Part shown: piece by piece, positions 5,673 through 26,006 of the stretch
Numbering within the stretch: position 1 is the first letter of the stretch
Layout of the letters: every line of letters starts with the position of its first letter
Origin: a virus
Length of the DNA: 26,725 bases
Reading direction: 5' to 3' (one strand)
Virus record (IMG/VR): IMGVR_UViG_3300042385_001021
Span: 1 to 26,725 of that record
The notes under the pieces: model-generated
The model's input: the letters and a program-made list of their open reading frames with translations, nothing else
Databases searched by the model: none
Told to the model about the DNA's origin: nothing
Translations under genes and position numbers: made by a program

Positions 5673-7712
5673 TTAGTTGCTAGTTTCTAATTTTATTTCA
5701 CAGTAATCTGTTGTGCAATACATTTCTCCAACGGAATCAAGATTCTCAATACCGTCATAAATTGCATCAAAGTTAATATGAGCAACCTTTCCAACATAAC
5801 CATCGTACTCTTCTTTAGTGATTTGTGTGTATGGCTGTTGTGGATAAGTGTGATTTCCCATTGGAAGGAAAGAAACTGCTTTCAATTGACCCTCGTACAT
5901 ATGAAGTGCTGGAGCAATATGTTTTGTTTCTGTTTCTTTGTCAAAAGATAAAGTCACAGACACTCCATTATCTGACCAATATTTTTGTGTAGTTGCAGCA
6001 AGACCAATCTTTTCAAACAAACTTACATCTTTCTCTGATCTTGGATGTCCTGAAGATACTGGGAAATATACTACACTAGTATTTGCTGATACTAAATCAT
6101 CTTCAATTTTATACCCTGCCGCTTTAAATAAATGTAGCATTGGATCTGTATTTCCAAAACGAATTGCACGTAAGAAATATTCTCCACCAACAGACCAGTG
6201 AACTCCTGGAGATGCTCCAGAAAGTAATGAAACTGATCCTGAAGGTTTTACTGTAGTTACACGAATTGATTCACGAACACATAGCCATTCTGAATACTGC
6301 TTGTCGTAGTGACGAATCTTATTGTATCCTTCGTCCATCCATTCTCTGGTTGTTGGCATTCCATTAATATCGGTAAATGATGCAATACCAGTTAATGATG
6401 TTCCAATTCTACGGTTTCTTTGCATGATACCGTTTGTAATTTGCCAGTGTGTTGGAAGTAGAGTTACAGTTTTTCCATAAAGATATGCAAATTTTAAGGT
6501 ACGCATAAAATCTTCTTTGTCTGTATGACGATTTAAGTGAACCTCAACTAATGTGCATAACTCATAAGATTCTAGTGGTTGTTCTGCACAAGGATTAAAA
6601 CCCATAACACGATAGTCTTTTCCATCTGCTGGATCTGCTAGTCTTCCATAATTTCTTGCAACATCAAGCCAAATAAAACCAGGCTCTCCATTATCTGCAA
6701 TCAAATCTACATAATCTTCATAATGAGTTCCAACTTCAGCAGAGATAGAGTTATTACTCATCCATGCCCATCCTGGATTTTCTGAATCAAATGAGTTACG
6801 ATCTGGAAATAGTTCTGAATTCTTAAGATTAATAAAGTCTTTATCGTTTGGATTTCCAAGAGCAAGTGTTGCAGATCTACGAACATTGCCAGAAACAACA
6901 CAAGTTCCAATAAGATTTACAATATCTACAATTGCTCTAGAATCTAACTTCTCTCCTGCTCTAGAACCAATTACTTTACGGATCATTGTATGTAGATCCA
7001 TTAATGGTTTTGGACCGCTAGCAACCCCACCAAAGCCCTTAATTGGGGCTCCTAGAGGACGGATTAAGTCATAGTTAAATTCTTGAATTGGTTGGTTTGC
7101 TCTTAAAAATGAATTAAGCAAAAGTCTAACAGATTCTACCCATCCTTCACGAGTATCTGGAATTTCATATACAGATGCTGGTTCTGTTGGTGCATAGATG
7201 GATAGATCTTTTTCTTGACCTACCGTGTCAAATCCAACTCCAATACCAAGCATTAATGCATCCATAACCCAAGCAAATAAAGATCCTGGATCGTTACGAT
7301 CAATGTCTCTTGTTGAAACCATTGCACAGTTTTGAAGAGATGCAGAATTTTTTCTTTCCATTGTCATTGGGGTACCAAAAGCCCAAAGACCTCTTCCTGG
7401 AGGTGTCCACTTAAGATTAAACATACGGTCATATGCTTCTTGTGCTGATTTTTGTGCTTTATAGTCGTTCCAAGGCAGTCTGTTTTCTTTTGCATGGTTC
7501 TTCTGTACTGAATACATACCCTCGATTACTCTTTTACAAACCTCATACCATCTTTCCTTAGTGCCATCATCTTTTACACGGGAGTAAGTACGAACAAAAG
7601 TAATCTCTCCTAATGAGTTTCCACCTGCATCTTTGAACCCAAATGGTGGTTCAATCTCTATATATTTGTTTACAAAATCATCAGAAAAACGAAAAGAAAA
7701 TATGTCAGACAT
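5673..7712 (-). CDS. nrdJ: Class II (adenosylcobalamin-dependent) ribonucleoside-triphosphate reductase
   Basis: The enzyme reduces ribonucleoside triphosphates to dNTPs using a cobalamin-generated thiyl radical and supplies phage DNA synthesis. At 679 residues it is near the length of the monomeric Lactobacillus-type enzyme. Recognisable parts are 'SLQNCAMVST' with Cys129 and the active-site segment 'FNPCAEQPLESYELCTLVE'. In that segment Cys375 is the likely thiyl residue, Asn373 and Glu377 are active-site partners, and Cys386 is the likely redox partner of Cys129. The C-terminal pair Cys666/Cys671 (CTTDYC) would re-reduce the active-site disulfide. All expected cysteines are present, so it should be active. 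No NrdB or NrdG partner is needed. The gene has its own promoter and a good Shine-Dalgarno (AAGGAG) and sits among virion genes. The symbol nrdJ is assigned by family. Confidence 0.92.
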   Translation of the reverse strand: MSDIFSFRFSDDFVNKYIEIEPPFGFKDAGGNSLGEITFVRTYSRVKDDGTKERWYEVCKRVIEGMYSVQKNHAKENRLPWNDYKAQKSAQEAYDRMFNLKWTPPGRGLWAFGTPMTMERKNSASLQNCAMVSTRDIDRNDPGSLFAWVMDALMLGIGVGFDTVGQEKDLSIYAPTEPASVYEIPDTREGWVESVRLLLNSFLRANQPIQEFNYDLIRPLGAPIKGFGGVASGPKPLMDLHTMIRKVIGSRAGEKLDSRAIVDIVNLIGTCVVSGNVRRSATLALGNPNDKDFINLKNSELFPDRNSFDSENPGWAWMSNNSISAEVGTHYEDYVDLIADNGEPGFIWLDVARNYGRLADPADGKDYRVMGFNPCAEQPLESYELCTLVEVHLNRHTDKEDFMRTLKFAYLYGKTVTLLPTHWQITNGIMQRNRRIGTSLTGIASFTDINGMPTTREWMDEGYNKIRHYDKQYSEWLCVRESIRVTTVKPSGSVSLLSGASPGVHWSVGGEYFLRAIRFGNTDPMLHLFKAAGYKIEDDLVSANTSVVYFPVSSGHPRSEKDVSLFEKIGLAATTQKYWSDNGVSVTLSFDKETETKHIAPALHMYEGQLKAVSFLPMGNHTYPQQPYTQITKEEYDGYVGKVAHINFDAIYDGIENLDSVGEMYCTTDYCEIKLETSN

Positions 7713-9806: not shown

Positions 9807-11966
9807 TTATGCTGACAAATCTCCCATTACAACCCAAGTGTTTTCTGCTCTTTTGAAAAGAGTAGCAGATGACCATTGTGTACGTAACTTTAATCCAGGA
9901 GTACTGTTTACTGTTACTCCTACTGCTCCAGCAATTGTTACTTGTCCCGCTCCAACTTGAAGTACATCAATAGAAGTTCCTACTGGAAACGGTGTTGTTG
10001 AGTTTGTTGGAATTGTTAAAGTTGTTCCACTACCAGAGTTAATTTCAATAAGGTTATCTCTAAGAGATACTCCTCCTGTTGATAAGTTATAAGATGCGCT
10101 TTGAGCAGAAATTGTTGTTCGTGATGGAACACCTTCTTTTGTTTGTGTACCGTCGGTAAAAATAAATCCACCAGCAGTTGTGCTAAGAACGGCAGTTCCA
10201 TTAACCTTTAAATCTTTTCCTGAAGCAAGGTTGATATTTTCGGAAGATGTCCAAGAATCTGTAGCATCTACCCAGTTAAAGGTTTTGTCTGTTGCGCCTT
10301 TAAGTGTTATACCTCCGCCATCAGCAGTAGTATCGGTAGGAATTGCAACATCACCAAGAACAATATTCTTATCATCAACAGAAAGTTCTGTTGAGTTGAT
10401 AGTTGTGGTTGTTCCATTTACTGTTAGATCCCCTGAAAGTGTAAGGCTTGTTCCAGATATTGCGCCTGTAAATGTTGCTCCTGAAAGAGCAGCCTTTGCA
10501 TCAATTTGTGTTTGAATCGCTGAAGTTACTCCATCAACATATCCAATTTCTGTTGAAGATACGGTTGAAGAGATACCAAGTTTTGTCCAATCAATTGCTG
10601 CAGATGCGTTAATATCAGCATCAACAATTGTTCCATCAAGAATTTTTGCAGAAGTAACTGCACCATCTGCTAAATCTCCAACAAGAATTGTTCCATCAAG
10701 AATCATTGCAGATGTAACAGTTCCTGAAGGAAGAGTTACTGTTCCTGTGAATGTAGGAGAGGCTAGTGGTGCTTTAGCATCTAACTGTGTTTGAATAGCA
10801 GAGGTAACTCCATCAACATATCCAATTTCAGTTGAAGTTACGGTTCCAATTGAAGTATTTGTAGGAAGAACAACATCTCCAGTAAATGTCTTTGCTCCTC
10901 CAAGTGTTTGTGTACCTGATTTAAGCACGATGTCTGATGTATCTGAAATACCATGAACATTTGTTGTGTCTTGTTCATGAGAGGTAACATCTGCTACTAG
11001 TGCAAATGTTCCTGTTGCATCTGGAATCATTATTGTACGATCTGCTGTAGGATCTGTTGCTGCTATAGTGGTTTCAAAACCATCTGCTGTAGTACCTTCA
11101 AAAACTATTGCTTGAGAGAAAACTCCGGTATTAGTTATGTCTGATAAGTTTCCTGTTGTAATAACTGTTCCTGTTGCATCTGGAAGGGTAATAGTCCGGT
11201 CTGCGGTAGGATCTGTTATTGCTAAGGTGGTTTCAAAAGCATCTGCTGTAGCGCCTTCAAAAAGAAGTGAAGTGGTAAAAGTTTGTCCTGATGCTACTGC
11301 ATTATCAACATATCCTTTATTTGCTAGATCTCCACTTAATGTTGGTGCTGCTGCGTTAACAATTTTATAAGTATTATCTAAATCAATATTTCCAGTCATT
11401 TGACCGCCTGCTTTTGCTAAACGAAGCAGTACGTCTGACTGCATTGCAACTGTACCAGTTGTGTCAGGGAAAGTAATTGTACGATCTGCTGTGGGGTCTG
11501 TTACTGTTAAGGTAGTTTCAAAAGCGTCTGCTGTAGCACCTTCAAAAACAAGTCCTGTTGTAGCATTAATTGTTGTGCTGTTAATAGTAGTAGTTGTACC
11601 ACTTACTGTTAAATCTCCTGATACTGTAACATTTCCACTACCGTCGGCCAAAACGACTGTACCTGTTGCGTCTGGAAGAGTGATTGTCCGATCTGCTGTA
11701 GGGTCTACTACTGCTAGGGTAGTTTCAAAAGCATTTGCTGTAGCACCTTCAAATTTAATGTTTGAGCCAAATTGGGGGTTTGTTGTGCTGTCTGCGTCCA
11801 TGAAGTAATCAAGGCTTAGCCAGTGGTTGGTGCCATCACCAATTTTAAATTTATTAGTATCTGACTCGTAACCGATTTCTCCGGCTGCAAGAATTGGGCC
11901 ATTGCCACTATTGGTTGATATCCATTGGGCTGCAGTGCCTCGTCTCTGTTGCATTCTTGTTGCCAT
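9807..11966 (-). CDS. Modular tail-fibre protein A
   Basis: The 719-residue fibre begins with a small domain ('MQQRRGTAAQWISTN...GEIGYESDTNKFKIGDG') of the kind found at the base of phage tropism or tail-fibre proteins (Mtd_N-like). It continues with Thr/Ser/Asp/Gly-rich repeats such as 'DPTADRTITLPDATGTV' in at least four copies. A middle block ('TTTINST...DDKN...GGGITLKGATDKTF') is shared with protein B (12506-14251). The C-terminal 60 residues ('DVLQVGAGQVTIAG', 'WSSATLFKRAENTWVVMGDL') match the end of the 17575-18498 product. It probably forms a trimeric receptor-binding fibre on the virion. The start has a strong GGGGG Shine-Dalgarno and a leader of about 27 nt. Confidence 0.82.
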   Translation of the reverse strand: MATRMQQRRGTAAQWISTNSGNGPILAAGEIGYESDTNKFKIGDGTNHWLSLDYFMDADSTTNPQFGSNIKFEGATANAFETTLAVVDPTADRTITLPDATGTVVLADGSGNVTVSGDLTVSGTTTTINSTTINATTGLVFEGATADAFETTLTVTDPTADRTITFPDTTGTVAMQSDVLLRLAKAGGQMTGNIDLDNTYKIVNAAAPTLSGDLANKGYVDNAVASGQTFTTSLLFEGATADAFETTLAITDPTADRTITLPDATGTVITTGNLSDITNTGVFSQAIVFEGTTADGFETTIAATDPTADRTIMIPDATGTFALVADVTSHEQDTTNVHGISDTSDIVLKSGTQTLGGAKTFTGDVVLPTNTSIGTVTSTEIGYVDGVTSAIQTQLDAKAPLASPTFTGTVTLPSGTVTSAMILDGTILVGDLADGAVTSAKILDGTIVDADINASAAIDWTKLGISSTVSSTEIGYVDGVTSAIQTQIDAKAALSGATFTGAISGTSLTLSGDLTVNGTTTTINSTELSVDDKNIVLGDVAIPTDTTADGGGITLKGATDKTFNWVDATDSWTSSENINLASGKDLKVNGTAVLSTTAGGFIFTDGTQTKEGVPSRTTISAQSASYNLSTGGVSLRDNLIEINSGSGTTLTIPTNSTTPFPVGTSIDVLQVGAGQVTIAGAVGVTVNSTPGLKLRTQWSSATLFKRAENTWVVMGDLSA
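11003..11757 (-). repeat. Four copies of a ~100-bp fibre coding repeat
   Basis: Copies at about 11003-11103, 11160-11263, 11452-11551 and 11650-11757 encode variants of 'FEGATADAFETT' plus 'DPTADRTITLPDATGTV'. A fifth copy lies in the neighbouring fibre gene at about 13895-13994. Nucleotide similarity is visible by eye ('gtacgatctgctgt' type blocks). The repeats can recombine within and between the fibre genes. Confidence 0.8.
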
Positions 11967-12505: not shown

Positions 12506-14251
12506 TTAAGCCTCGATGTATGTTTTGCTAACTTTAACAACTGTATCTGCTGCTGCGCCAGTTACTTGAAGAAGAACGTTTCCAGCACTGTAAACAGCGT
12601 TTGTTGTTCCTAGTTCAGCATTGCTAACTACATCAGCATACTCTGTTAAGTAAACGTTATTTGATCCATCAATGGTAACAAGTAATTCAATTACTTCAAT
12701 ATCAGTACCCTTTTTCATTTGTACGATATATTTAGCGCTTGAGTATGTTGTTGCTGACCATGTATCAATAGTTGTTGCAGTTGCAGCAGCAGTTCCTGTT
12801 GCAGATCCAATAAGAGCATCTGGAAGAGCAAGGCTTGTACCTGTTGCTGCTCCAATTTCTGGAGTAACAAGAGTTGGTGTATTAGCAAATACTAATGCGC
12901 CTGTTCCTGTCTCGTCTGAAATAACTCCTGCAAGTTCTGAAGATGATGTTGCAGCAAGTGCTGAGATCTTGCTTGCTGTAGTAATACCATTTGTAACTGT
13001 TGCAGCATTTCCAGTGTACTGTGTTGCTGACAGAACTTCAGTTCCATTAATCTTTAATACCTTGCCAGAAGCAAGATCCATGTGCTCAGAAGATGTCCAT
13101 GCATCAGTTGCATCAATCCATGAGAAGGTTTTGTCTGTTGTACCCTTAAGTGTAAGACCACCACCGTCAGCGCCTGCATCTGTTGGAGTTGCTACTGAAC
13201 CAAGTGTAAGGTTCTTGTCATCAACTGTGATTTCTGTTGAGTTAATTGTGGTTGTTGTACCGTTTACTGTTAAATCCCCTGACAAAACAAGAGATGTACC
13301 AGTTGCAGCACCAATGTTTGGTGTTACAAGTGTTGGGGTATTAGCAAAAACAAGTGCTCCAGTACCAGTTTCATCAGAGATGATTCCAGCAAGTTCTGAA
13401 GAAGATGTTGCTGCAAGTACGTTTAACTTATCTGTTGTTACAACAAGAGTCTTTGATGACGGGATAGTTGTACCGTTAACAGATGTAGCAGAAGCCACAC
13501 CAAGATCTGGAGTTGTAAGAGTTGGGCTTGTAAGAGTCTTGTTTGTAAGAGTCTGTGTGTTTGTAGTACCAACTACTGCACCAGTTGCACCGTGTGCTGT
13601 TGTTGATCCTGTATGTGTTGTAAGATCTGCATCAGCAGCCTTTGCATTTAATTGAGTCTGAATTGCTGATGTCACACCATCTACATAGTTAAGTTCTGTT
13701 GTAGAAAGAGTTGCTCCATCAAGAATGTTAAGTTCTGTAGAACTTGCTGACATAACAACATCTTCGTTAATTTTTGGTGATGTTAATGTTTTGTTTGTAA
13801 GAGTTTGTGTGTTTGTTGTTCCAACTACCGCACCAGATGCGCCGTGTGCTGCTGTTAGGTCTGCGTGAGTTGTAACATCTGAAGTAAGTGCTACTGTACC
13901 AGTTGCGTTTGGAAGTGTAATTGTACGATCTGCGGTTGGATCTGTAACTGCAAGTGTAGTCTCATAGGCATCTGCTGTTGCACCTTCGAAAATAATACTT
14001 TCTGTAAATACACCAACTGCTGCTGGATCTGACCATTGAACGCCATATGTTGCACCTGACGCTGCTGTGAGGACCTGTCCGTTGGTTCCAACGCCAAGAC
14101 GTGCTATTGCATCATTTGCACTACCAACAATTAAATCACCTTTAGCATCTACAGTTCCTGCGGTAATAACATTTTTACCATTAACAGTTGCTGTTTCTCC
14201 TTGAACAATTAAACCATTTTTTACTTTAAAATCTTTGTCTACTGTTGCCAT
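12506..14251 (-). CDS. Modular tail-fibre protein B
   Basis: The protein has 581 residues. Its N-terminal cap 'DKDFKVKNGLIV' is shared with the 12013-12483 product. A 'DAKGDLIVGSANDAIARLGVG' element is shared with 17575-18498, and the 'DPTADRTITLPNATGTV' repeat and the 'TTTINST...DDKN' block with protein A. The C-terminal ~95 residues ('SSAKYIVQMKKG...YLTEYADV') are homologous to the C-terminus of 14267-14713. Two internal 'LAATSSSELAG...ISDETGTGALVFANTPTLVTP' copies and two 'GTTNTQTLTNKTLTSP' copies show duplication. A receptor-binding or side-fibre role is inferred. The start has AAGGAG about 8 nt upstream. Confidence 0.82.
   Translation of the reverse strand: MATVDKDFKVKNGLIVQGETATVNGKNVITAGTVDAKGDLIVGSANDAIARLGVGTNGQVLTAASGATYGVQWSDPAAVGVFTESIIFEGATADAYETTLAVTDPTADRTITLPNATGTVALTSDVTTHADLTAAHGASGAVVGTTNTQTLTNKTLTSPKINEDVVMSASSTELNILDGATLSTTELNYVDGVTSAIQTQLNAKAADADLTTHTGSTTAHGATGAVVGTTNTQTLTNKTLTSPTLTTPDLGVASATSVNGTTIPSSKTLVVTTDKLNVLAATSSSELAGIISDETGTGALVFANTPTLVTPNIGAATGTSLVLSGDLTVNGTTTTINSTEITVDDKNLTLGSVATPTDAGADGGGLTLKGTTDKTFSWIDATDAWTSSEHMDLASGKVLKINGTEVLSATQYTGNAATVTNGITTASKISALAATSSSELAGVISDETGTGALVFANTPTLVTPEIGAATGTSLALPDALIGSATGTAAATATTIDTWSATTYSSAKYIVQMKKGTDIEVIELLVTIDGSNNVYLTEYADVVSNAELGTTNAVYSAGNVLLQVTGAAADTVVKVSKTYIEA
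12830..13435 (-). repeat. Internal duplication in fibre protein B
   Basis: Two segments (about 12830-12960 and 13300-13430) encode nearly the same ~45 residues, centred on 'SDETGTGALVFANTPTLVTP'. They flank the 'TTTINST...DDKN' block, as expected from a duplication with an insertion between the copies. Confidence 0.75.
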
Positions 14252-17574: not shown

Positions 17575-18498
17575 TTAAGCCGTCAGATCGCCTAGAAGAA
17601 CCCAACTATTTGTACCTGTTTTAATAAGTGTTGCTGCTGAGTATTGGCCAGAAAGTTTTCTATTGTTATTCTTGCTATTTAATGTAACGCTTCCACTTAC
17701 TGGTGCAATTGATGTTTGAACAGAACCTATTTGTAGAATGTCAACCCTTGCTCCCGCTGGAAATGTGGTTTCTAGTGGAATTGTAATAATTGAAGTTGAT
17801 GATGATACGTTCATAATAATAATTTTGCCAGCATCTGCTGGATCTAATGTATAGTTTGCTGTCTTAGTTGATGAATCAACTGTTTGTTTTAATGTTGAGA
17901 CTGCATCGTATGTTGTTTTTACAGCAGTTGGAGTTGCTGCTTTAACTGACGAAGTTTCTGATGTAGAATCACTTAACTGAACAACTCCTACAACAGATGT
18001 TGTTGCTGCAGTTGATGCTTTGTCATACGCTGCTTTTACTGCAGTTGGTGTTGCTGCTTTAATTGAAGAGGTTTCTGATGTAGAGTCTGATAATTGAACA
18101 ATTCCCACAACAGATGTTGTTGCTGCTTGTGGTGGTGCAATCCATTTAAGTCCACTTGTTTCGGCTGTGTCTGTTGAAAGAATATATCCAGCAGATCCGG
18201 CAGTAAGTTTAACTACTGTATCAGCAGCACTTCCTACAATTAAATCACCTTTATCGTCTATAATTGTTTTTGATACAACAGTTCCATCTGCAGTTACTAG
18301 ATCGGCAATATCTGATTGAATTTCTTTTAAATAATATGCAATACCTGCAGTTGCATCTGCGCCAGGAGCAAGGACTCCACTTTGTCCATAATGATAATTT
18401 CTTAATGCAACTTGAATATCTGCAGGATCAGTTAATTCCGGCATTTTTGCAAGGGGATAAGGATGATTTCCAGTTGATCCAATAGAGGTAGCAGCCAT
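17575..18498 (-). CDS. Modular tail-fibre protein C
   Basis: The protein has 307 residues. An N-terminal attachment region ('HPYPLAKMPELTDPADIQVALRNYHYG') is followed by 'DDKGDLIVGSAADTVVKL', shared with fibre B. Two tandem ~39-residue repeats come next ('TTSVVGIVQLSDSTSETSS' and 'TTSVVGVVQLSDSTSETSS', each followed by KAATPTAVK), which match the phage tail-fibre repeat known from P2/lambda-type fibres (Phage_fiber_2). The C-terminal 60 residues ('RVDILQIGSVQTSIAP' to 'TNSWVLLGDL') match the end of fibre A. It is probably a receptor-binding fibre. Translation is leaderless by its promoter, with TGTTATAAT 6 nt before ATG. Confidence 0.82.
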   Translation of the reverse strand: MAATSIGSTGNHPYPLAKMPELTDPADIQVALRNYHYGQSGVLAPGADATAGIAYYLKEIQSDIADLVTADGTVVSKTIIDDKGDLIVGSAADTVVKLTAGSAGYILSTDTAETSGLKWIAPPQAATTSVVGIVQLSDSTSETSSIKAATPTAVKAAYDKASTAATTSVVGVVQLSDSTSETSSVKAATPTAVKTTYDAVSTLKQTVDSSTKTANYTLDPADAGKIIIMNVSSSTSIITIPLETTFPAGARVDILQIGSVQTSIAPVSGSVTLNSKNNNRKLSGQYSAATLIKTGTNSWVLLGDLTA

Positions 18499-19084: not shown

Positions 19085-19840
19085 CTAAGAAATGTGGACT
19101 AAGATAGATTTGACTTTTACATCCCCGTCAAAATCTGCTCTAATTTGTGGGTTAATTCCATATTTTCTAATTCTGTCATTTACTATGTACAGGGTTTGGG
19201 TAACTGAAAAATCATAAAGATATTTATATTTTAGGTTTGCTACAAACTGTGTTGAATTTAAAGTTGCTTTTTCAGAAAAGGCTCTTATCCAAACTTCAGT
19301 ATTATTTCCATATGTTTCTAGTTCAAAACAATAAGTTATTTCAACTCTAGTGCCTATATCTAATCCTTTAAAGTTTAATTGTTGATTTGCTGCACTCCAT
19401 AGACTTACATTTCCTTTTGGCAAATATTCTTCGTTTGTCCCCTCAGATTTTGCATCATTTAATAAATTTACCCATCCTTCATCTCCGCTAGATAGTCCTA
19501 CACGAATTTGTGACTGATCTAAATTTTCATAATATGCCCAACCAGACTTTCTATTTTGAGAAACTATTCCGTTGCTTGCAACAATTGATGATTCTCCTGG
19601 TTCTCCCTTTTGTCCTCTTTCACCTCGCGGTCCAGGATCCCCTTTATCGCCTTTTGGTCCTATCTCTCCCTGTCTACCAGCAATTCCTTGTGGTCCTGGT
19701 GGCCCTACAAGTATTCTGTAGTCTATATCGGGCACTGAGGGATTATTTGTTTCTATAACTGTTTCTGCTACTGCTTCGGCATAGCCATATTTAGGTTTTG
19801 ATTGCATTCCTGGAATTTCAGATTTTTTACTTATGCTCAC
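19085..19840 (-). CDS. Collagen-like virion protein
   Basis: The 251-residue protein has 13 unbroken Gly-X-Y triplets (residues 46-84, beginning 'GPPGPQGIAGRQGEIGPKGD'), so it should trimerise as a short collagen stalk. Residues 1-45 would anchor it, and 85-251 form a beta-rich head ('GWAYYENLDQSQIRVGLSSGD', 'VSLWSAANQQLNF', 'VEITYCFELETYG'). Collagen stalks are known in phage tail fibres and capsid decorations. The start is GTG, and its first bases overlap the TGA of the 27-residue ORF (GTGA), so translation is coupled. Confidence 0.78.
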   Translation of the reverse strand: MSISKKSEIPGMQSKPKYGYAEAVAETVIETNNPSVPDIDYRILVGPPGPQGIAGRQGEIGPKGDKGDPGPRGERGQKGEPGESSIVASNGIVSQNRKSGWAYYENLDQSQIRVGLSSGDEGWVNLLNDAKSEGTNEEYLPKGNVSLWSAANQQLNFKGLDIGTRVEITYCFELETYGNNTEVWIRAFSEKATLNSTQFVANLKYKYLYDFSVTQTLYIVNDRIRKYGINPQIRADFDGDVKVKSILVHIS

Positions 19841-23716: not shown

Positions 23717-23771
23717 ATTATACACGAACCAACTGACATTCTCAAATCGAAAATCGGGCGATTCCGGACAT
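23717..23771 (-). promoter_or_regulatory. Early promoter with ATGTCCG and TGTCAG boxes
   Basis: On the minus strand ATGTCCG starts at 23771, TGTCAG starts 33 bp later at 23738, and TATAAT (23722-23717) follows after exactly 10 bp. The same grammar occurs in three plus-strand promoters. The 330-bp gap 23669-23998 holds this promoter, the divergent plus promoter and extra ATGTCCG copies, and no gene that I can support. Confidence 0.6.
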
Positions 23772-23815
23772 ATTGCCAAAGTGTAATGTACCTCACACAA
23801 CAAACTAGGGCAAAA

Positions 23816-23868: not shown

Positions 23869-23903
23869 ACTGTGATGTAACACACATTGAGAGTTTCTAA
23901 AAA

Positions 23904-23968
23904 ATGTCCGATTTGTCTGTATTTAGGTTGACATAACAACTGCAAATGTCAGTGGTGCCTGTTATAAT
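23904..23968 (+). promoter_or_regulatory. Early promoter with ATGTCCG and TGTCAG boxes
   Basis: ATGTCCG starts at 23904, TGTCAG 43 bp later at 23947, then exactly 10 bp to TATAAT (23963-23968), which is also an extended -10 (TGTTATAAT). TTGACAT and ATGTCA around 23929-23951 form an inverted repeat. Confidence 0.62.
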
Positions 23969-23998: not shown

Positions 23999-24169
23999 AT
24001 GACTACACTAGTCCTAATGCCCCTAAATCGGTATTATTTAACCGATTATACCCAATTCACCCACTGCGACGAGGTCCAATACCGCCACTATTGCGAAAAG
24101 CATTTCGAGGCGCAAGGTTGCTACTATTGCGAGTTTGACCCTTATGAGCCTTGCGAGTGTGATCAGTAA
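23999..24169 (+). CDS. 56-residue Cys/His-rich early protein
   Basis: The product begins 'MTTLVLMPLNRYYLTDYTQF' and has many possible metal ligands: THCD, RHYCEKH, CYYC and PCECD. The spacing suggests one or two small zinc sites. AAGAAAGGTGG lies before the ATG. The start context (ribosome binding site through MTTL) is nearly identical to that of the next gene, so both were probably copied with their promoters. I know no family. Confidence 0.65.
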   Translation: MTTLVLMPLNRYYLTDYTQFTHCDEVQYRHYCEKHFEAQGCYYCEFDPYEPCECDQ

Positions 24170-24180
24170 CACATTGAGAG

Positions 24181-24245
24181 TTGTCCGATATGTCTGATAT
24201 TTACTTGACATAATCACTGTAAATGTCAGACCCCTCTGCTAGACT
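24181..24245 (+). promoter_or_regulatory. Early promoter, duplicated copy
   Basis: TTGTCCG starts at 24181, TGTCAG 43 bp later at 24224, then exactly 10 bp to TAGACT (24240-24245), preceded by TGC. The spacing is identical to the promoter at 23904. Confidence 0.6.
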
Positions 24246-24279
24246 TACACCATAACAACAAAAAAGAAAGGTGGTCAAA

Positions 24280-24459
24280 ATGACTACATTAACAATAAAT
24301 AAAATCCATACTCATACCCCTCTAGTGAGTGCCATCTCTATCGTTGATGAGGTTGCCTATACTTTCTGTATAGAGTGTGAACAAAATATCGAGTCCTTCT
24401 ATATTGACTTTGATAGCGACCGCTTAGGTCGTTGGAGTAAATGGGAGGTGTCTAAATAA
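24280..24459 (+). CDS. 59-residue early protein
   Basis: The product begins 'MTTLTINKIHTHTPLVSAIS' and contains one CIEC pair and an acidic/aromatic stretch 'SFYIDFDSDRLGRWSKW'. A GTG at 24271 is in frame, but it lies within the ribosome binding site (AAGAAAGGTGG), and the duplicated upstream copy also starts at MTT, so ATG 24280 is preferred. It is the first gene of a four-gene plus operon. I know no family. Confidence 0.65.
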   Translation: MTTLTINKIHTHTPLVSAISIVDEVAYTFCIECEQNIESFYIDFDSDRLGRWSKWEVSK

Positions 24460-24617
24460 TGATGACACGCAAACACTACCAAGAGGTAGCAGATATTCTA
24501 AAAAATACCGAAATGCCTGCTGGCGTTCTTGAAACTTTAATAATGGATTTCTCTGATTTCTTTGAGAGAGATAATCCAAACTTCAATCCAACACTATTTG
24601 AAAAGGCGGTATTCTAA
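24459..24617 (+). CDS. Early 'MTRK' family protein, copy 1
   Basis: The 52-residue protein begins 'MMTRKHYQEVADILKN' and contains 'LIMDFSDFFERDNPNFNPTLFEKA'. It is clearly paralogous to the 25105-25293 product. Similar short proteins ('DYFA.DNP.FD...F..AC') are common in actinophage early regions, from memory, without an assigned function. The start overlaps the previous stop (TAATG). There are no cysteines. It is helical and acidic in the second half. Confidence 0.7.
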   Translation: MMTRKHYQEVADILKNTEMPAGVLETLIMDFSDFFERDNPNFNPTLFEKAVF

Positions 24618-24727
24618 TGAACTATTGGGCACTAATATCTTTCATATCTGCTGGACTCGTTGCGCTTGCTGGCGTGTTAGCCTTTGGCTTATTGCTAAGG
24701 GCTGAGAAATATGGGTGGGATGAATGA
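24617..24727 (+). CDS. 36-residue single-span membrane micro-protein
   Basis: The product 'MNYWALISFISAGLVALAGV' continues LAFGLLLRAEKYGWDE. One transmembrane helix spans nearly the whole N-terminal 27 residues, followed by a short charged tail. It overlaps the previous stop by one base (TAATG) and the next start by four (ATGA region), so it is a real coupled gene rather than filler. The membrane role is unknown. Confidence 0.6.
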   Translation: MNYWALISFISAGLVALAGVLAFGLLLRAEKYGWDE

Positions 24728-24909
24728 AATATAAATTAGATAGTGCGTGTGCGTATTGTCCTGATTGTAATTTTGGTCAGGACTCTTGGGATAGGACTTG
24801 TATCTCTTGCGGTAAACAATCTTTAGTAAGTGGCTTTCGCTATATAGATTTAGTAAATCTAAAGTATGTATATAGTGACGCACCACCACGAGAAATCTTG
24901 GAGGTGTAA
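24724..24909 (+). CDS. 61-residue zinc-ribbon early protein
   Basis: The product begins 'MKYKLDSACAYCPDCNFGQD' and continues to CISCGK, giving a CxxC...CxxC ribbon with one extra cysteine (CAYCPDC, then CISC). The C-terminal half is beta-prone and Tyr/Val-rich. Such ribbons often bind nucleic acid or RNA polymerase. It is the last gene of the 24280-24909 operon. Confidence 0.7.
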   Translation: MKYKLDSACAYCPDCNFGQDSWDRTCISCGKQSLVSGFRYIDLVNLKYVYSDAPPREILEV

Positions 24910-24926
24910 AACCCTTATATTTCAAT

Positions 24927-24951
24927 GTAACGCACTCGGGCGTGTCGTTAC
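24927..24951. promoter_or_regulatory. Imperfect hairpin beside the DnaA boxes
   Basis: GTAACGCAC and GTGTCGTTAC pair around TCGGGC with a single bulged T. No T tract follows directly, so a terminator role is weak. It may belong to the origin-like region or to the 3' end of the preceding operon. Confidence 0.35.
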
Positions 24952-24961
24952 CCCTGGGTTT

Positions 24962-24981
24962 TGTGGATAACTTGTGGATAA
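24962..24981 (-). promoter_or_regulatory. Two tandem DnaA boxes (candidate origin)
   Basis: TGTGGATAA occurs at 24962-24970 and 24973-24981 (reverse complement TTATCCACA, the perfect consensus box), 11 bp apart in the same direction. A partial third (TATGTGG) follows. They lie in the gene-free gap 24910-25016, with AT-rich sequence on both sides. This fits a replication origin or a DnaA-controlled switch. Confidence 0.6.
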
Positions 24982-25016
24982 CTTATGTGGGCTATCTCAC
25001 AAAACTAATTTAAGAA

Positions 25017-25071
25017 ATGTCCGATTTATCCTGATTTTAGATTGGCTATTGTCAGTGGCTTAGGCTAGACT
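25017..25071 (+). promoter_or_regulatory. Early promoter with ATGTCCG and TGTCAG boxes
   Basis: ATGTCCG starts at 25017, TGTCAG 33 bp later at 25050, then exactly 10 bp to TAGACT (25066-25071). The 33-bp spacing matches the minus promoter and is one DNA turn shorter than the two 43-bp promoters. It also fits TTGTCA as a -35 with 17-bp spacing to TAGAAT at 25072. Confidence 0.6.
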
Positions 25072-25104
25072 TAGAATATAACAACAATGAAGGGAAAACC
25101 TATA

Positions 25105-25293
25105 ATGATGACAAGAAAAGACTATGTTAATGTATCGGATATTTTGCGAGCATACCAAGATGAAATACCTCAAACTTTATTCGAGGATTTAATAATGGAT
25201 TTCGCAGATTTCTTTCAAGCAGACAACGACAATTTCTCACCAGAGAAATTTGAAAATGCTTGCTATAATTCTACTATGAAAGTTGGTGCGTAA
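25105..25293 (+). CDS. Early 'MTRK' family protein, copy 2
   Basis: The 62-residue protein starts 'MMTRKDYVNVSDILRAY' and has 'LIMDFADFFQADNDNFSPEKF', matching the 24459-24617 product through most of its length, then a short extra tail. The frame is open from an ATG at 25087, but that would overlap the ribosome binding site (GAAGGGA). The paralogue starts at MMTRK, so 25105 is chosen. It is the first gene of a long plus operon that reaches 26365. Confidence 0.7.
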   Translation: MMTRKDYVNVSDILRAYQDEIPQTLFEDLIMDFADFFQADNDNFSPEKFENACYNSTMKVGA

Positions 25294-25502
25294 TGAGTTA
25301 CCTTTATTCATTTGAAAGAGTTACACCAGAAACTGACGGGTATGGAGATACAATTTTCGATACCCCAGAAGTTGACACAATTCCCGCTGATCTTTATTCT
25401 GATTGGACAGATGAGGACTTAGCAGAATATGAGGCGTACTATGAGGAACACTATGACGAAACAGATGAACTACAACAGGAAGCGAGAAACAACAATGAAT
25501 AA
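25293..25502 (+). CDS. Highly acidic 69-residue early protein
   Basis: The protein has about 22 Asp/Glu and 2 Arg in 69 residues, and many Tyr, as in 'WTDEDLAEYEAYYEEHYDET'. Such charge is typical of DNA-mimic anti-restriction or inhibitor proteins, but acidic disordered proteins are also common, so this is only a hint. The start overlaps the stop of the MTRK gene by one base (TAATG). Confidence 0.65.
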   Translation: MSYLYSFERVTPETDGYGDTIFDTPEVDTIPADLYSDWTDEDLAEYEAYYEEHYDETDELQQEARNNNE

Positions 25503-25698
25503 CACTCTAACAGTAGAAACCCCGATCATCTTTAAACACACAATAAACCTTAGTGACTTTCCAGAGTTTAATCAGTTGAGTGAGGAAAAAATAAAAACTT
25601 TTCTTACTGAAATGGTTGTTACTGTCTTTGAATTAAAAGAAACAGAAAAGAAAGTCAATAAGTACAACAATGGATCTTATTGTGAGGTGATTGCGTAA
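25495..25698 (+). CDS. 67-residue early protein
   Basis: The product begins 'MNNTLTVETPIIFKHTINLS' and continues with a predicted helix 'EEKIKTFLTEMVVTVFELKE'. The frame is open from 25429, but the acidic gene reads through there in another frame and the ATG at 25495 follows AGGAAGCGAGAAA. It overlaps the acidic gene by 8 bp. I know no family. Confidence 0.6.
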   Translation: MNNTLTVETPIIFKHTINLSDFPEFNQLSEEKIKTFLTEMVVTVFELKETEKKVNKYNNGSYCEVIA

Positions 25699-26006
25699 TG
25701 GGTAGAATGTTATCTAATGAGTTGGCTAGTGGGGATTTTGGTATCCCCCTAGAAAGTGCTATGACTTATCACTTGAGAAATAATCACTACCCGCCAGTGC
25801 CTCATTCTATGGTGTCGGTATGTATTGAAGCAATAGACGCATACAGTGACGGACTAACAGAAAAACTAATTCAGTTGCCTTGCGACGGATTAGATAGAAA
25901 CGGCGAGCCATTCCAAATTACTTGGAGAGGTGAGCGATTTGCACCAGCAAATGCAATTATTGAAGCAAACCACTTATGGGAATGGGTGACATATGACAAC
26001 GACTAA
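25698..26006 (+). CDS. 102-residue early phage protein
   Basis: The protein has 'SAMTYHLRNNHYPPVPHSMV', 'CIEAIDAYSDGLTEKLIQLP', 'GEPFQITWRGERFAPANAII' and 'HLWEWV'. Proteins of this pattern ('LRNNHYPPV...', then a NG/DG strand and a final helix) are familiar from actinophage early regions without a known function. The start overlaps the previous stop by one base (TAATG). Its end overlaps the next ORF by 14 bp. Confidence 0.7.
   Translation: MGRMLSNELASGDFGIPLESAMTYHLRNNHYPPVPHSMVSVCIEAIDAYSDGLTEKLIQLPCDGLDRNGEPFQITWRGERFAPANAIIEANHLWEWVTYDND

Follow-up and report, generated by a model that had tools for sequence, protein, structure and literature searches.

Tandem DnaA boxes within a predicted composite early promoter of a freshwater phage family

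The window analysed here, a viral record of 26,725 bases taken at its full length, is a piece of a larger phage genome and carries two perfect DnaA boxes in a gap between early genes. There is about an even chance that this pair is a host-DnaA site within a composite early promoter, where it would modulate early transcription together with a CRP-type factor, a reading that rests on computed elements, their order and enrichment, the phasing of a palindrome and recurrence in relatives. Since dozens of relatives repeat the layout beside a CRP-type site, the boxes more likely tune early expression to the state of the host than start phage replication at this place.

The DnaA box pair and its intergenic gap

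Box 1 (24962-24970) and box 2 (24973-24981) are both perfect copies of the 9-bp high-affinity consensus TTATCCACA on the minus strand, read as TGTGGATAA on the plus strand, and their starts are 11 bp apart, which is the arrangement that the initial annotation had described. Its judgement that such a pair is improbable by chance was supported by simulation, as only 0.30 (order-3 Markov) to 0.34 exact boxes were expected in a sequence of the size of the window and none of 400 simulated Markov windows contained two same-strand boxes 30 bp or less apart; the pair is therefore not attributable to chance. A third exact copy was located at 5839, within the ribonucleotide reductase gene.

The gap (24910-25086) separates an ORF ending at 24909 from the next early ORF and is free of genes, as had been noted. 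Its GC content is 38%, against 36% for the window, and the AT-rich flanks previously ascribed to the boxes were found on the promoter side (34%) and not on the hairpin side (24910-24961, 48%). The hairpin reported beside the boxes is present as an imperfect structure at 24927-24951, with a stem formed by 24927-24935 and 24942-24951, though this segment folded no better than its own shuffles when the window sequence alone was considered (z 0.61). It holds one copy, GGCGTGTC at 24939, of the family-wide repeat GGGCGTGTCG.

The boxes were also considered as the marker of an adjacent initiator gene, which was rejected: the neighbouring ORFs received no confident family assignment and gave no support for such a gene, and DnaA domain IV was absent from the ten long or near-complete phage records searched. 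The small early ORFs at 24459-24617 and 25087-25293, which have separate early promoters, are alike (about 71% DNA identity over 72 nt), suggesting a gene duplication.

A predicted composite early promoter that includes the boxes

Downstream of the pair, a CRP/GlxR-like palindrome, TGTGGGCTATCTCACA (24986-25001), differs by one mismatch from TGTGA-N6-TCACA and lies upstream of the core promoter, the placement by which CRP/GlxR-type promoters are recognized. It is followed by ATGTCCGATTTATC (25017-25030, plus strand), an operator-like repeat common to early promoters, the earlier report of an ATGTCCG box at 25017 being correct, and by the core early promoter TGTCAG-N10-TAGACT (25050-25071, plus strand), whose predicted –10 element at 25066-25071 lies 72.5 bp downstream of the centre of the palindrome. 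The first early ORF of the downstream unit (25087-25293, plus strand) encodes 68 aa, with possible alternative starts at 25105 or 25108.

The window has four early promoters in all, and its four palindromes with at most one mismatch are each found at one of them. The divergent promoter combines the CRP-like site TGTAATGTACCTCACA (23782-23797) with the core TGTCAG-N10-TATAAT on the minus strand (23717-23738). Two paralogous promoters on the plus strand occupy 23871-23968 (CRP-like site at 23871-23886, ATGTCCG at 23904 and TGTCAG-N10-TATAAT at 23947-23968) and 24158-24245 (CRP-like site at 24158-24173 and TGTCAG-N10-TAGACT at 24224-24245), and no DnaA box was found at either. The box pair is restricted to the promoter at 25050 among the four. 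The relative G010 has a second pair at its counterpart of the 23947 promoter, and one of the two boxes there carries a mismatch. The TGTC[AG]G core with a 10-nt spacer, seen at 23947, 24224 and 25050 on the plus strand and at 23717-23738 on the minus strand, represents an unusual –35 spacing.

Enrichment of the boxes in the phage family

Box counts were obtained from 80 loci around an early gene and from a subset of 63 non-redundant loci (1.05 Mb of early region), which are related to each other, so that the counts are not independent. Across the 80 early loci, TTATCCACA ranked first among 1,680 9-mers of the same composition, with 281 matches compared with a mean of 16.3 and 78 for the next word, and its density reached 21.7 per 100 kb versus 2.7 in portal-region loci. 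The non-redundant set of 63 relatives held 219 boxes, against 13.4 for a typical word of the same composition, and 142 of them (65%) were intergenic, though intergenic DNA made up 23% of the sequence by a crude gene call. Among close pairs, same-strand boxes favoured spacings of 11, 12, 21 and 53 bp, and opposite-strand boxes favoured 23-24 bp. In the box pairs at L320:19929, L327:19241, L329:19121, L337:11873 and L303:9786, the second box supplied the left-hand arm of a hairpin with a T-run behind it (TTATCCACAgcctgtggatttttt), which resembles a terminator built from a DnaA box.

Over 192 family boxes, the conserved block was the 9-mer itself, with only weak preferences in the flanks. That this block equals the 9-bp DnaA consensus makes it highly improbable that the word is read by another, phage-encoded protein sharing the DnaA box sequence, as does its occurrence around dnaA in the candidate host Ca. 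Planktophila versatilis, even if the early phage proteins scanned, which received no confident family assignment, leave room for such a reader.

The position of the boxes also bears on whether they could act as a sponge, in which high-affinity boxes on the replicating phage genome would absorb host DnaA and block new rounds of host chromosome replication. The strong enrichment of perfect boxes is in line with this, and the 2-10 exact copies per record (64-123 kb records) would multiply with phage copy number, in likeness to the perfect DnaA boxes outside oriC that form datA-type titration sites (PMC5835720). However, a sponge needs no set position, and the boxes, unlike those of datA, are carried by a phage and occupy fixed promoter positions, clustering in the early segment beside CRP-like promoter sites; moreover, several relatives have only two to four boxes. 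Titration is therefore unlikely as the main role, and it could operate in addition to a role at the promoter.

Architecture and phasing of the early promoters

The promoter role is favoured by the wider context in which the boxes recur. The elements follow a recurring order, consisting of a GC-rich hairpin, one or more DnaA boxes, TGTGA-N6-TCACA, ATGTCCG or CGACACGCC/GGCGTGTCG, TGTCAG and a –10 box, the last two forming the core promoter TGTCAG-N10-TAnnnT. The palindrome occurred 255 times in exact form, and variants with other gaps between 3 and 9 yielded 0-4 occurrences; in 70 of 135 box clusters its start lay between –6 and +40 bp relative to the last box, compared with 2.5% of random positions. 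Of 249 distinct promoters, 235 had a spacer of exactly 10 nt in TGTC[AG]G-N10-TAnnnT. The 1.05 Mb contained 300 copies of CGACACGCC/GGCGTGTCG, where shuffled words gave 2.4, and a copy in the window lies at 24939; together with ATGTCCG, it looks like one of two versions of a single operator preceding the core promoter.

Measured from the –10 box, the centres of 256 CRP-like sites peaked at distances of about 42, 52, 62, 73 and 83 bp and were helically phased to it (Rayleigh R 0.57 at 10.3 bp), as would be expected for a DNA-bound activator touching RNA polymerase, and the DnaA boxes were phased more weakly (p 0.002 at 10.5 bp). An upstream TGTGA-N6-TCACA in helical phase with the –10 element is shared with class I promoters activated by CRP or GlxR, from which the family differs in its core, TGTCAG-N10-TAnnnT instead of –35 and –10 hexamers spaced by 17 bp, and in that the ligand is a predicted one. 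The distances are also about 3 bp off the E. coli class I series. A DnaA box was carried by 40 of 220 distinct CRP-like promoters (about 18%), the other 180 having no exact box, a point against the promoter reading. The box pair, taken as a 22-mer, also turned up in at least 120 further viral contigs, where a CRP or promoter context was mostly lacking, so that the pair alone is not diagnostic. The recurrence of boxes upstream of CRP-like sites and of the same core promoter across the family lends weight to the proposal, made in the initial annotation, that they may couple early transcription to host DnaA.

The hairpins of these promoters suggest another role, in which DnaA bound at the hairpin would act as a roadblock or insulator, halting transcripts from the upstream unit (the gene ending at 24909) and leaving the downstream unit to its own promoter only. 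In many cases a stable hairpin immediately precedes the first box, the 36 nt before it in boxed family promoters having a mean of –8.1 kcal/mol versus –3.7 kcal/mol in random stretches, and box pairs of one class overlap a stem that, trailed by T-runs, looks like a terminator. Nevertheless, hairpins were also present at divergent and at unboxed promoters, the orientation of the boxes relative to transcription varied in the family, and the excess of co-directional upstream genes at boxed promoters (32 of 40, against 118 of 180 unboxed ones) was not significant (Fisher p 0.09), making a roadblock rather unlikely.

Conservation of the gap in relatives

Alignment of nine loci with an equivalent gap, the window included, revealed that both 9-mers were kept in eight of them. 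Four of these eight gaps had the hairpin-side sequence replaced and a box spacing of 12 bp. From the ninth (G015/L258) the boxes have been cleanly deleted along with the hairpin and the gene upstream, with the palindrome, ATGTCCG and the promoter left in place. Consequently, the boxes have been maintained in most lineages and are dispensable in one, and the preservation of the rest of the promoter in G015 counts against an essential role there.

The origin question and a downstream module

The suggestion that the pair is a phage replication origin, or part of one, acting through host DnaA fared poorly, and such an origin at this spot is very unlikely. The likeness of same-strand tandem boxes 11-12 bp apart to the putative oriC boxes of P. 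versatilis speaks for it. The DnaA-trio rule of the basal unwinding system asks for three or more.A. trinucleotides no farther than 16 nt from a box (PMC8287927); the window pair shares with that system the tandem, closely spaced high-affinity boxes of chromosomal origins, and differs from it in having no run of three such trinucleotides within 16 nt on either side. The hairpin side, at the GC content given above, offers no AT-rich unwinding stretch, and the boxes are missing from G015. The window is a fragment, and in the near-complete relatives G015 and G045 the extremes of GC skew lay away from the site and appeared to follow gene direction.

A better candidate lies downstream in the relatives, where a trio-like CAGTAAGAT adjoins tandem boxes. 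In 12 relatives this module consists of CAGTAAGAT (or TAGTAAGAT), about 5 nt, TGTGGATAA, 2-3 nt and a second TGTGGATAA, and a run of CTCCACT repeats precedes it, the surrounding stretch being poor in genes and rich in AT; for example, AGTAAGATTTATc-TGTGGATAA-acc-TGTGGATAA was found at L243:19300-19600 (G015) and L242:5780-5850 (G004). It is placed about 8-9 kb downstream, which in G015 corresponds to about 8.3 kb past the position of the window gap and beyond the end of the window record. CAGTAA[G/C]AT also accompanied 26 of about 130 occurrences of the 22-mer box pair in other viral contigs. CAG-TAA-GAT fits the three-trio pattern, as do 36% of random 25-mers, and the conservation of the module is for that reason a stronger argument than the trio fit. 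The module is a candidate DnaA-dependent phage origin and would be more origin-like than the pair in the window.

Phage relatives and candidate hosts

The nearest annotated phages by portal protein were Streptomyces phages such as Karimac (46% identity), and the ribonucleotide reductase was 61% identical to that of the Actinomycetia phage DSL-LC01 (OQ999401). Portal relatives among viral contigs numbered 433, including G015 (112.9 kb) and G029 (108.1 kb), and a DNA search of annotated phages with window positions 24000-26000 returned no match. DSL-LC01 has a GC content of 54% and lacks TTATCCACA and TTGTCCACA, an exact CRP palindrome and a TGTCRG-N10 promoter; it does not, therefore, have the composite architecture. 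Elsewhere in the window, clustered long genes (9807-11966, 12506-14251, 17575-18498 and 19085-19840) matched tail-fibre and collagen-like families.

The hosts are likely freshwater Actinomycetota. A phage PstS-like protein gave matches of about 36%, the best being to a freshwater Actinomycetota bin and to Ca. Planktophila. In the candidate host P. versatilis, dnaA is flanked by tandem TTATCCACA pairs with spacings of 12 and 11 bp (G054:C1:94-114 and 1584-1603), as found in the phages. This, like the lack of DnaA domain IV in the ten phage records, favours host DnaA as the probable ligand. TGTGA-N6-TCACA was not enriched in this genome (17 versus 21 in the control), so that another host, or another ligand of the palindrome, is possible, and counts of CRP sites in P. 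versatilis and a sample of its class singled out no host. A search for CRP-family proteins produced one match above the cut-off in P. versatilis and, in the phages, one weak CRP helix-turn-helix match below it.

Proposed role and relation to known systems

According to the proposed mechanism, host DnaA would occupy both boxes next to each other, at a distance of about 90-110 bp upstream of the predicted –10 element, and a CRP/GlxR-type regulator would sit on the neighbouring palindrome, always on the same side of the helix with respect to RNA polymerase. These factors and the ligand of ATGTCCG would jointly determine how strongly or when the early unit beginning at about 25087 is expressed, and its output would then follow the growth and replication state of the host. 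We infer DnaA and a CRP-family protein as the ligands, activation as the net effect and the physiological purpose.

To our knowledge, the action of DnaA on phage early promoters is known mainly from lambda. The closest parallel is that phage, in which DnaA stimulates transcription at pR and oriLambda (Wegrzyn 1995; Szalewska-Palasz 1998; references in PMC3985674). Common to both systems are DnaA boxes in a phage early promoter region and a proposed influence of host DnaA on early transcription. As described in PMC3985674, the lambda sites lie downstream of pO near the origin and only resemble the consensus, whereas the boxes described here match it perfectly, occur in tandem ahead of the core promoter and next to a CRP-like palindrome, and are present at several promoters across the family.

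The literature searched yielded no description of DnaA boxes at freshwater actinophage early promoters, or of a single phage family in which many early promoters combine perfect DnaA boxes in tandem with phased CRP-type palindromes; this is no proof that none exists.

A broader picture is put forward tentatively. In a widespread family of freshwater phages of about 105-125 kb, probably actinophages, DnaA, reporting replication state, and a CRP/GlxR-type factor, reporting nutrient state, may act at adjacent, helically ordered sites of many early promoters, and many members may have a DnaA-trio-type origin about 8-9 kb downstream, which would place early expression and replication alike under host DnaA. 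If true, this family would constitute a replicated natural test of phage takeover coupled to the cell cycle and nutrition of the host, in bacteria that are ecologically important and hard to culture, and would also provide a concrete candidate for a DnaA-dependent phage origin.
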